Of a stretch of DNA of 64,000 bases, positions 830 through 46,698 are shown piece after piece (within the stretch, counting starts at the first letter, position 1; each line of letters opens with the position of its first letter). The translations under genes and the position numbers were made by a program. The DNA is from Bdellovibrio bacteriovorus. Its GTDB lineage: Bacteria > Bdellovibrionota > Bdellovibrionia > Bdellovibrionales > Bdellovibrionaceae. The notes beneath the pieces were generated by a model, which was not told where the DNA came from, did no database searches, and saw only the letters and a list, made by a program, of their open reading frames with translations. The DNA is taken from positions 3,348,001-3,412,000 of the forward strand of contig NZ_CP020946.1 in NCBI RefSeq assembly GCF_002208115.1. Direction: 5' to 3'.

Positions 830-2371
830 TTGATTAAAAAATTCATACCCATTCCCGTCGTTCTTGCTTACCTAGGGTGCGCTTCGCTCCCACCCAATAC
901 AAATCGTTCTTATTCTGAAGCCCTGCCTCCTGATCCAAAGACTCAACTGGCCCAGGCGACAGAAGAACAGCTCAAAAAACATCCGGGTCTGTCAGGCTTC
1001 TATCCCCTGGCGTCCGGTCTGGAGGCATTGGTCGCCCGTATGGCGGCGGTCGCCGTTTCTGATCGCAGCATCGATCTGCAATACTATATCTGGGAAAATG
1101 ACCTGACCGGCCGAATGCTGATGCATGAAGTTCTGCTGGCAGCCGATCGGGGCGTGCGCGTGCGTGTTCTGCTGGATGATCTTAACCAGGGACGCTATGA
1201 GCGAGGCCTTGCCATTCTGGATTCACACCCGAACATCGAAGTGCGCATGGCCAATCCTTTCGCCGGAAGAAGCTGGCGCATTCTGGATGCGATGAGATTT
1301 TCCACCGTCAACCGTCGCATGCACAACAAGGTCTTTGTGGTCGACAATCAAACGGCGATTGTGGGTGGACGCAACATTGGCAATGAATACTTCTGGGCCA
1401 GCGAAGAAATGAACTTTGGTGACTTCGATCTGTGGGCCATCGGCCCGGTGGTTCAGGATCTTTCGCGGGAATTTGATTCTTATTGGAACAGCGAAATCGC
1501 CTATCCTATTTCTGTCTTGGTCAATGGATTCAAGCCCACCGCCGAGGACCTGCAAAAACTGAAAGCCGATGCCGCAGCCGCCATCGAGGAAGCCGAAAAA
1601 ACCCAGTATGCCGCCGCCCTCAAAGAAACCCCGATGGTGAAAAAGTTCACCCGCGAGCCGTTAAAACTTTATTGGGGAAAGGCCGAAGTCGTGATTGATC
1701 CGCCGGAAAAATTCCGCCAGCATTCAAAGGAACAGACCGACAACCTTGCCCATCAGCTTTATCCTCTGATCGAAAAGACCCAGAAAGAACTGATTCTGGT
1801 TTCCCCTTACTTTATTCCCGGCAAAAAAGGAGTGCAGTTTTTTAAGAGTCTAAATAACCGTGGTGTTGCCTCTCTGGTTCTGACCAATTCCCTTGCTTCC
1901 AGTGATGTGGCCACCGTGTTTTCAGGCTACAAGGGTTACCGCAAGGATCTTCTTGAACAGGGGGTTCAGCTTTATGAGCTAAAACCCACCCCGCAAAAAA
2001 CCATGCCGAAAAAGAGCCGTGTGGGCGCCAGCTTCTCCAGCGCAGGCTTGCACGGAAAGATCTTTGTCTTCGACCGAAGGAAGGTCTTTGTCGGGTCAAT
2101 GAACCTGGATCCACGATCGGCCACTTTGAACAGCGAAATGGGCGTGGTTGTCGACAGCCCCGAACTGGCCGAAGCGATCAGCAAGAACCTGATCGCCAAT
2201 CTTCGCGAAGACAATTATCAGGTTTTACTGGATGACAGAAAGAACCTGATTTGGAAAACCACCGATGACCATGGCAAAGAACAGGTCTTTACCAAAGAAC
2301 CTGAAACCAGTTGGTGGAAGCGCCTGAAAGCGGGGCTCAGCGGGATCTTCGTTCCCGAATCCTGGCTGTGA
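815..2371 (+). CDS. Phospholipase D-family lipoprotein, cardiolipin synthase C-like
   Basis: Two HKD motifs mark a phospholipase D superfamily enzyme: HNKVFVVDN with downstream GGRN (His codon at 1322) and LHGKIFVFD with GSMNLDPR and NSEMG (His codon at 2051). The stretch QYYIWENDLTGRMLMHEVL resembles cardiolipin synthase C (ClsC/YmdC), so it probably transfers or hydrolyses phosphatidyl groups at the envelope; phospholipase activity is the alternative. A lipobox LAYLGC suggests a lipid anchor. The start is uncertain. ATG 815 lies in the terminator stem and has no clear Shine-Dalgarno, while TTG 830 (LIKKFIPIP) has GGGG nine bases upstream. Both keep the lipoprotein signal. A bidirectional terminator follows the stop. 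Confidence 0.85.
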   Translation: MGFFFLIKKFIPIPVVLAYLGCASLPPNTNRSYSEALPPDPKTQLAQATEEQLKKHPGLSGFYPLASGLEALVARMAAVAVSDRSIDLQYYIWENDLTGRMLMHEVLLAADRGVRVRVLLDDLNQGRYERGLAILDSHPNIEVRMANPFAGRSWRILDAMRFSTVNRRMHNKVFVVDNQTAIVGGRNIGNEYFWASEEMNFGDFDLWAIGPVVQDLSREFDSYWNSEIAYPISVLVNGFKPTAEDLQKLKADAAAAIEEAEKTQYAAALKETPMVKKFTREPLKLYWGKAEVVIDPPEKFRQHSKEQTDNLAHQLYPLIEKTQKELILVSPYFIPGKKGVQFFKSLNNRGVASLVLTNSLASSDVATVFSGYKGYRKDLLEQGVQLYELKPTPQKTMPKKSRVGASFSSAGLHGKIFVFDRRKVFVGSMNLDPRSATLNSEMGVVVDSPELAEAISKNLIANLREDNYQVLLDDRKNLIWKTTDDHGKEQVFTKEPETSWWKRLKAGLSGIFVPESWL

Positions 2372-44828: not shown

Positions 44829-44856
44829 TTCGAGTTTCTTAAATTAATGCCAAGTG

Positions 44857-44890
44857 AAGGGTCTCTGAAAAGGGACCCTTTTCTTTTTTA
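44857..44890. terminator. Bidirectional terminator
   Basis: AAGGGTCTC (44857-44865) and GGGACCCTT (44872-44880), with one G-U pair, are followed by TTCTTTTTTA. The T-run overlaps the end of the convergent minus-strand gene. Confidence 0.88.
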
Positions 44891-45484
44891 AGGGAAGATT
44901 GAAACACGCTCCGAATTGAGCTGAGCCACATCCAGAATATCCTGCCGACTTAAGCCCGCCTGAGCCGTGCGAATCACCACCTGCACCCCGGCCCGGACAT
45001 AGTCCTGCAAGTCCGTTTTCAGCACGACTGAATTAACGTTGTAAATAAAAGGCTTGGCCGCCGCCAGAATCAAAAGATCGGCGCGGGAAAGGCCCGAGCT
45101 TCCCGACATCACTACCAACTGAACATTGGCATTTAAAAGAGCGACCAAGTTGTCCCGAGAAAGACGACTGCTATCAACGTAAAGCACATAGGTGCCAGCC
45201 GCCGCCATATCGATAAAATCCTGATTGGTATAGCTGGTCTTGCTGACGGAAAGCCCCATGTTCACATTGGGATTTGAAAGCATCGAAAGCAGCTCTGTCT
45301 TGCCGATCAAACTGACCTGATTCTGGCAATAAGTGATACGTGAAACCTTCGCGATCTCGGTCACATCCGCCGCCGTCATATTCGAGCCCGAATTCTGCTG
45401 CAGACACTCCGAAAACTGCGGAGGCAACGCCGCCCACACAGCAGATGACACCAAAAGAACCAAGACAAAAGACAGAACCTTCAT
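44888..45484 (-). CDS. Exported repeat protein, unknown function
   Basis: 198 residues from ATG 45484 behind GAGGTG; signal peptide ends SAVWA. The mature protein consists of helix-strand repeats of about 30-35 residues. Examples are LSRDNLVALLNANVQLVVMS, LSRADLLILAAAKPFIYNV, LKTDLQDYVRAGVQVVIRT and LSRQDILDVAQLNSERVSIF. This suggests an open solenoid in the periplasm, with a pair of cysteines near the start (FSECLQ, ITYCQ). No family recognised. It lies downstream of the cloverleaf-like element and the M23 peptidase gene on the same strand. Confidence 0.72.
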   Translation of the reverse strand: MKVLSFVLVLLVSSAVWAALPPQFSECLQQNSGSNMTAADVTEIAKVSRITYCQNQVSLIGKTELLSMLSNPNVNMGLSVSKTSYTNQDFIDMAAAGTYVLYVDSSRLSRDNLVALLNANVQLVVMSGSSGLSRADLLILAAAKPFIYNVNSVVLKTDLQDYVRAGVQVVIRTAQAGLSRQDILDVAQLNSERVSIFP

Positions 45485-45564
45485 AAGCACCTCACCTCAA
45501 GTTTAGTACCTACAAAAAAATATACTCAAAGATTTTCCATGATATTTGCCAAATCCACTGGCGA

Positions 45565-45690
45565 GGAACCGTTCAAAAAGGTCCAGCCGCAAGGCGGAGG
45601 TGCGCCCTCGCAGCGCAGGCGTGCTCCAAGCACGTCGAAGCGAGAAGGTGCGCCGACAACGCAGTCGGATGGGCCTTTTTCAACGGTTCC
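45565..45690. repeat. 126-bp inverted-repeat element with cloverleaf-like folding
   Basis: The ends (45565-45585 and 45670-45690) are 21-base arms that pair with one wobble and one mismatch. Three hairpins are nested inside. CCGC-AAG-GCGG is at 45587-45597. CTCGC (45607-45611) with GCGAG (45640-45644) encloses CGTGCT-CCA-AGCACG (45620-45634). CCGAC and GTCGG are at 45653-45668. GGTGCGCC occurs twice. It fills the gap after the M23 stop on the minus strand and could be a dispersed palindromic element, a structured RNA or an elaborate terminator. Confidence 0.65.
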
Positions 45691-45693
45691 GGT

Positions 45694-46698
45694 CTATTCG
45701 TCTAAGATGTAGTTGATTGGATCTACGGCGGTACCGTTAATGCGGACTTCATAGTGCAAATGAGGGCCTGTTGAACGTCCGGTGTTACCCACCGCGCCCA
45801 CAACGTCCCACTTGTTCACGCGCTGGCCGACTTGAACATAGATCTGTGACAAGTGACCAAAACGAGTCGTCACTCCATAACCGTAATCGATGGTGATCAG
45901 CTTACCGTAAGACTCATCGTAACTGGCAAAGACGATAACCCCGTCAGCCGGAGCATAAACCGGTGAACCCGGCGCCGCGGCGATGTCCAGACCCGCATGC
46001 AAGGCGGTCTTACCCGTGAACGGAGACACACGATAACCAAAACGTGAGGTGATCCAGCCCTTGGCAGGTTTCATGTTCGGCGTGGAGTTCAGCAAGCTCT
46101 GGCGCTCGGAAAGACTTTCCCAAAGATCAATGACACTTTGTTCTTTCAACTGGGTTTCTTTCACGGCCTTGTCGATACGAACCACCAAAGAGGCGTAGTC
46201 TTTATCCGCATTTTCGTTGGCCAGTTCACCCTGTTGATCGTTCAAAGGCTTTTTGTTGGCAAAGACCTGATCCTGTTCTTCCAGAACGTCGGTGCTTTCA
46301 CGCTGCTCCATCGGTTCGTATTCTTCCACCGGCTGACCGGCAGCAGGCTTCGGACCCATGGTCAGCTTGGTGATACGGTCGTCGGCATCGACGTTCGTGA
46401 TCAATTTCAACTTGGTGGTGAAGGTCTTTACGCGCTCCAAAGAGTTTTCCAAGGCGCTGACTTTACTTTCAACCACCTGGAACTGTTTAATCAGCTGAGC
46501 ATTTTCAGCTTTAAGACGTTTGTTTTCCATGGCCTGCAACAGCAGACCGAAATAGTCCACCAGACCGGCGGCAAAAATGATGATAACGATGGCGGAAATA
46601 AAGGAGATGGCTTTAAGCCAGGCAGCCGAGAGCACAAGCTTACGGGTTTTCCCCGTCTGATTGCTCACAATAAACAGCGTGACCTTCTTTTTATCCAA
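45694..46698 (-). CDS. Membrane-anchored M23 murein endopeptidase
   Basis: 334 residues. A short cytoplasmic N-terminus and one membrane helix (about 28-47) precede a coiled-coil region (about 58-100 and 165-205) and a C-terminal LytM/M23 domain (about 215-325). Zinc ligands H234 and D238 (HAGLDIA) and H315 (GPHLHYE), and catalytic-type H282 (RFGHLSQ), are all present, so it should be an active DD-endopeptidase rather than an EnvC/NlpD-type activator. It probably cuts peptidoglycan cross-links from the inner-membrane side during growth or predation. Confidence 0.92.
   Translation of the reverse strand: MDKKKVTLFIVSNQTGKTRKLVLSAAWLKAISFISAIVIIIFAAGLVDYFGLLLQAMENKRLKAENAQLIKQFQVVESKVSALENSLERVKTFTTKLKLITNVDADDRITKLTMGPKPAAGQPVEEYEPMEQRESTDVLEEQDQVFANKKPLNDQQGELANENADKDYASLVVRIDKAVKETQLKEQSVIDLWESLSERQSLLNSTPNMKPAKGWITSRFGYRVSPFTGKTALHAGLDIAAAPGSPVYAPADGVIVFASYDESYGKLITIDYGYGVTTRFGHLSQIYVQVGQRVNKWDVVGAVGNTGRSTGPHLHYEVRINGTAVDPINYILDE

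Follow-up and report, generated by a model that had tools for sequence, protein, structure and literature searches.

A dispersed hairpin repeat of Bdellovibrio that follows stop codons and is oriented with the replication fork

Integron attC sites are imperfect palindromes that follow a stop codon in fixed orientation and combine variable arms with constant unpaired features, and ERIC sequences are intergenic imperfect palindromes of about 126 bp. A palindromic repeat of Bdellovibrio bacteriovorus, located at positions 45565–45690 of the window (the whole 64,000-nucleotide stretch of DNA that was analysed), is alike in these respects. It differs from attC in having no GTTRRRY/RYYYAAC at the hairpin base, in having outer arms that vary freely, and in lying as single, scattered copies on the chromosome instead of in an array of cassettes. 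Unlike in the case of ERIC, no TA duplication was seen at its copies; we know of no sequence relation between the two, nor of a strand lock reported for ERIC. The RAYT-associated REP, REPIN and BIME sequences are likewise dispersed extragenic palindromes, often near the 3' ends of genes, and a REP of the GTAG type may itself provide the stop codon (PMC3733652). However, a REP is a hairpin of 20–40 nt, whereas the element described here is a rod of 124 bp without a GTAG (or CGTC) foot that follows TAA, TAG and TGA stops, has no linked RAYT gene (none being detected in two element-rich genomes), and is locked to the direction of replication in about 95% of its copies. IS608 and ISDra2, of the IS200/IS605 family, insert as single-stranded DNA into the lagging-strand template (PMC6006769). 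Subterminal DNA hairpins and this route of insertion make the family a close parallel, but the present element is one long hairpin, not two short end hairpins, and has neither a constant target tetranucleotide at its left end nor a transposase. Multicopy intergenic sequences of Geobacter (PMC2700814, PMC2996986), palindromic families of another former delta-proteobacterial lineage, are comparable intergenic repeats; a relation to the present element would be speculative, as a near-exact core pattern searched over GTDB genomes matched only a single Bdellovibrio MAG. No published description of this repeat was found in the open-access literature.

The sense strand of the window copy is the minus strand, read from 45690 to 45565 with the stop-codon-proximal end first. 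The upstream gene on the same strand (45694–46698) encodes an M23 peptidase (Peptidase_M23, E 4e-34), in agreement with the preliminary description, and the element begins 3 nt beyond its TAG stop codon (45694–45696). The next gene, also on the minus strand (44888–45490), starts about 75 nt past the element and encodes a 200-residue protein for which no Pfam match was obtained. The coordinates first given for the palindrome were right, and its pairing lies far beyond chance: the RNA fold has an energy of −73 kcal/mol against a mean of −44.9 for shuffled sequences (z −7.4, equalled by 0 of 200 shuffles), and the DNA fold has a z of −5.6. No Rfam family matched the element, even at E 1. A terminator scan of 45400–45800 found no standard intrinsic terminator, i.e., no short GC stem with a loop under 10 and a T run. 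Elsewhere in the window, at 44838–44889, an ordinary stem with a T run behind it (AAGGGTCTCTGAAAAGGGACCCTTTTCTTTTTT) lies after the preceding plus-strand gene and resembles such a terminator.

Copies of the element are numerous. The genome from which the window derives (G000; 3.77 Mb, one contig) holds 27 by DNA search and 30 places at E < 2e-5 by a covariance model trained on 23 copies (alignment A1, structure R1), confirming the earlier suggestion of a dispersed palindromic repeat; the copy search and covariance analysis proposed there revealed many copies with compensatory changes between them. Within the genus, 18 of the 19 sampled genomes, this one included, carry between 1 and 58 copies, G060 being the one without any; a deeper search of four genomes found 40 (G037), 71 (G044), 20 and 25, and G031 has 16–18. 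Matches outside the genus were few and weaker in the family sample, and over the phylum 44 of 192 genomes gave matches, those outside the genus mostly at E 1e-5 to 1e-13. The layout is unchanged in these distant copies: some eight outer pairs that vary freely, TGAAAA...TTTTGA, CTGCGTTG...CTCGCATCTG, and at the apex a hairpin of CGACGTAC...GTACGCC. The repeat is thus a new family dispersed over the genus, with weaker copies across the phylum Bdellovibrionota. The sole plasmid match is one copy at the end of a CDS on a plasmid of Bdellovibrio sp. HAGR004; no match was found in phages, nor, with a single search pattern, in viral contigs. In G037, the smallest of the complete genomes searched in the genus, copies also form head-to-tail tandem pairs whose unit measures about 126–138 bp (685350/685488, 813338/813478, 961275/961413, 1669367/1669503, 1891388/1891513, 2404848/2404973 and 2734251/2734385).

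The conserved fold is one long interrupted hairpin. When mutual information was computed over 100 copies with no preset structure, the top column pairs fell on a single rod, which joins model positions 1–24 with 101–124, 28–46 with 81–99, and 49–61 with 65–77. In the window copy, the 5' arm of the outer helix (1–24) occupies 45666–45689 on the minus strand, holds the constant TGAAAAAGG, and is partnered by mutual information with the 3' arm (101–124) at 45566–45589, which holds CCTTTTTGA; 10 of the 19 pairs of this first helix show two-sided changes, and most positions of the outer arms vary between copies. The middle part, supported like the 3' arm by both mutual information and covariation, has on its left side (28–46; 45644–45662) a conserved CTGCGTTGTCGG internal-loop motif followed by a fast-changing arm, and on its right side (81–99; 45591–45609) a fast-changing arm followed by a conserved CTCCGCCTTGC motif. 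On the same two lines of evidence, the apical part (49–77; 45613–45641) is a CGACGTGC/GCACGCC hairpin flanked by conserved mismatches. The two internal loops are constant in sequence across copies. The rod has 131 two-sided cells on alignment A1, against 44 when shuffled and 11–27 when slid, with 93% of cells paired. The preliminary description had drawn a multibranch, cloverleaf-like shape. Its terminal arms (45565–45585 with 45670–45690) do pair, save for a constant interruption, and its three inner hairpins can be drawn in the window copy, some of them being used by the DNA fold; however, where its hairpins depart from the rod, their pairs give only 17 two-sided cells against 9.7 when shuffled, with 70% paired. 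Because the rod covaries strongly and the differing hairpins little, the cloverleaf is a shape that this copy can adopt but is not what has been conserved; a tRNA-like fold is rejected on the same counts, and "long imperfect palindrome" is the description that is borne out.

Placement relative to genes is precise. Among 98 fork-oriented copies, 68 begin close to the stop of a long ORF that runs in their own direction, at −3 to +12 nt and mostly at 0–4 nt, and stop-codon adjacency is also seen in the copies of distant relatives. The stops preceding these 68 copies are TAA (32), TAG (31) and TGA (5), with TGA under-used relative to 38 of 167 (p 0.005). A fixed TAG target was considered and rejected, as TAA and TGA stops occur too. 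The left flank is variable, with no fixed tetranucleotide in its composition. In the downstream flank (+1 to +45), G and T strongly predominate on the sense strand and C is scarce for 25 nt or more, unlike the ordinary sequence after leading-strand genes; this tail is weak at the window copy. Several copies sit between convergent genes.

Orientation follows the replication fork. With the origin placed at dnaA and the terminus taken to lie opposite, the sense strand is co-directional with the fork in 232 of 245 copies from ten complete genomes, whereas 294 of 553 genes (53%), called in sampled stretches by a simple ORF caller, follow it; an orientation bias to the lagging-strand template of the IS200/IS605 kind is thus seen here as well. 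The pooled p value of about 1e-47 overstates independence, as orthologous copies are counted once per genome, but the window's own genome alone, free of this inflation, gives 26 of 28 (p 7e-6), and three divergent genomes together (G000, G037 and G044) give 128 of 136 (p 4e-26). In each of the 38 background stretches, the assignment of the leading strand is borne out by GC skew. Because about 95% of copies follow the fork while genes are near 50:50, it is fork direction, not gene direction, that sets and better predicts orientation. Consistently with this, copies without a neighbouring stop follow the fork in 30 of 36 cases (p 1.5e-4), and the copies at 406076 and 1174489 of the window's own genome, which have no co-directional upstream gene, are still oriented fork-wise. 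In G042, 2 of 6 copies fit by origin position and 4 of 6 agree with the local GC skew; this exception is partly explained by rearrangement, as the genome looks rearranged. The remaining exceptions are a few divergent copies, found in G044, G058 and G000.

Comparison of orthologous sites points to both gain and loss. The L011 site is occupied in G000 alone among five genomes and empty in four relatives, and the L017 site in G000 alone among three and empty in two; this occupancy favours gain, while L016 and L013 appear to reflect loss in one strain. At the window locus, G000 and Tiberius (which we take G006 to be) carry the element at full length, G042 and G046 lack it, and HD100 (presumably G034) has an internally deleted form with the outer stem left (L103). 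Shortened forms were noted at this HD100 locus, at the L005 locus of Tiberius (L122) and at 1008066 of G000, the apical part being gone and the outer stem lying directly after a stop codon. Some sites are old: the one that follows a gene for an FKBP-type peptidyl-prolyl isomerase is shared by four species (L023, L068, L199 and L202). Among the copies analysed, no two from one genome match at more than about 96%, which argues against a recent burst. No target-site duplication was seen at the copies. Presence and absence at orthologous sites, together with the strand lock, favour the earlier option of a small mobile element, but the search for a mobilising enzyme, described below, did not find one.

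Palindromic repeats of bacteria are commonly interpreted as RNA terminators or as RAYT-driven REPs; in the present repeat it is the fork that sets orientation. The element is multi-copy, has rod-like covariation, abuts stop codons, is locked to the fork and is gained and lost between strains. Our preferred, though tentative, reading is that it is a non-autonomous hairpin repeat of about 124 bp that inserts as single-stranded DNA into the lagging-strand template and is tolerated at gene ends. By replication geometry, the sense strand is the parental strand exposed as lagging-strand template. What is maintained would be a hairpin of single-stranded DNA, with its pair of conserved internal loops, and a putative host or mobile enzyme might recognise it by shape and loop motifs; at the fork, copies would be annealed or joined, still single-stranded, into the lagging-strand template, and would survive where they are least harmful, directly after stop codons. 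Entry of this kind is favoured because the IS608/ISDra2 route would give the observed orientation. Several findings count against the reading: the precise adjacency to TAA, TAG and some TGA stops, which no simple target sequence explains (though TGA is under-used), the lack of target-site duplications, the limited likeness of copies within a genome, the old sites, the departure of G042 by origin position, and the unsuccessful search for a mobiliser. The main rival, which we consider unlikely, is a dispersed terminator or 3'-UTR stabiliser that stops RNA polymerase or blocks 3' exonucleases and spreads by recombination between genes. It would suit the start of copies just past stop codons, the A-tract/T-tract in the stem, the G/T-rich 25–45 nt downstream that ordinary leading-strand genes lack, and the copies between convergent genes. 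As a sole explanation it fails because of the strand lock: stop-adjacent copies lie behind 68 leading-strand genes and 2 lagging-strand genes, though genes are divided 53:47. Sense-strand G-U, harmless in RNA, is also no commoner than A-C, the scan detects no standard terminator at the window copy, and sister strains have lost or lack some copies. In the preferred, single-stranded entry, the A-tract/T-tract stem may, once inserted, also end transcription of the upstream gene as a by-product. It is improbable, in our estimation, that these are instead ageing palindromes kept by replication without transposition, with lagging-strand template switching correcting one arm from the other. Such switching would yield perfect arms and strand asymmetry, and it agrees with the excess of two-sided over one-sided changes between orthologues and with the internal deletions at the window locus of HD100 and at L005 of Tiberius, where remnants of the outer stem persist, but by itself it creates no copies at new sites such as L011 and L017, and it accounts neither for the conserved unpaired loops nor for the orientation of whole copies.

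The level at which the stem is constrained bears on a further alternative, that the element is a transcribed, structured non-coding RNA family. Its strong fold, its covariation and its phylum-wide loop motifs would all be expected of such a family. However, weighted cells at well-paired stem positions comprise 1672 Watson-Crick, 21 G-T and 52 A-C, and at orthologous sites in three close strains both partners changed 66 times against 9.6 expected, one-sided changes having made A-C 20 times and G-T 8 times. As partners change together with hardly any G-U intermediates, the constraint looks DNA-level rather than RNA-level: selection on a sense-strand RNA should tolerate G-U far better than A-C, and the counts therefore speak against it. 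This is modest evidence that the constraint acts at the DNA level, or that whole arms are replaced or corrected; RNA from the antisense strand is compatible with the same counts. In addition, the coordinates of the eight published attack-phase sRNAs of HD100 overlap none of the listed HD100 copies, Rfam holds no matching family, and G060 does without the element. The structured RNA proposed as one option in the preliminary description is thus not favoured, and we regard an RNA family as very unlikely. Highly improbable, too, is a REP/REPIN-type repeat moved by a resident RAYT (Y1 HUH) transposase. The window's own genome does contain five Y1_Tnp genes of RAYT type, the logic of single-stranded hairpins and the lagging strand fits, and GTAG REPs likewise abut stop codons (PMC3733652). 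However, no credible copy lies within 1.5 kb of any of these five loci, the fixed GTAG foot is absent, the RAYT gene at L028 is flanked on both sides by another repeat, and PF01797 (Y1_Tnp) has no match in the element-rich G037 (40 copies, with tandem arrays) or G031 (16–18 copies), though a divergent Y1 protein could escape this search.

The strand lock nonetheless points to a putative mobilising enzyme. An all-against-all comparison of neighbouring ORFs for a linked mobiliser gene returned mainly the element itself, one orthologous locus and small unrelated groups. A retroelement origin (group II intron or retron) is unlikely, as the reverse transcriptase family PF00078 had no match in five genomes (G000, G006, G037, G044 and G031). 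It is conceivable, if somewhat doubtful, that the repeat represents a new class of mobile DNA across Bdellovibrionota, in which non-autonomous hairpins are put one-way into the lagging-strand template at gene ends by a replication-coupled enzyme other than a RAYT or a reverse transcriptase. In a genus that includes the tractable laboratory strain HD100, the spread of short hairpin DNA with replication becomes directly testable. A second short dispersed repeat, AAAAGGTRCCTG, often with a complementary arm, was also observed, including at L010, L020, L032, L229 and L231. At L028 it lies inverted on both sides of the RAYT gene, at 1354–1365 (+) and 2152–2163 (−), in a REPtron-like arrangement, and probably represents the true partner of this G000 RAYT.
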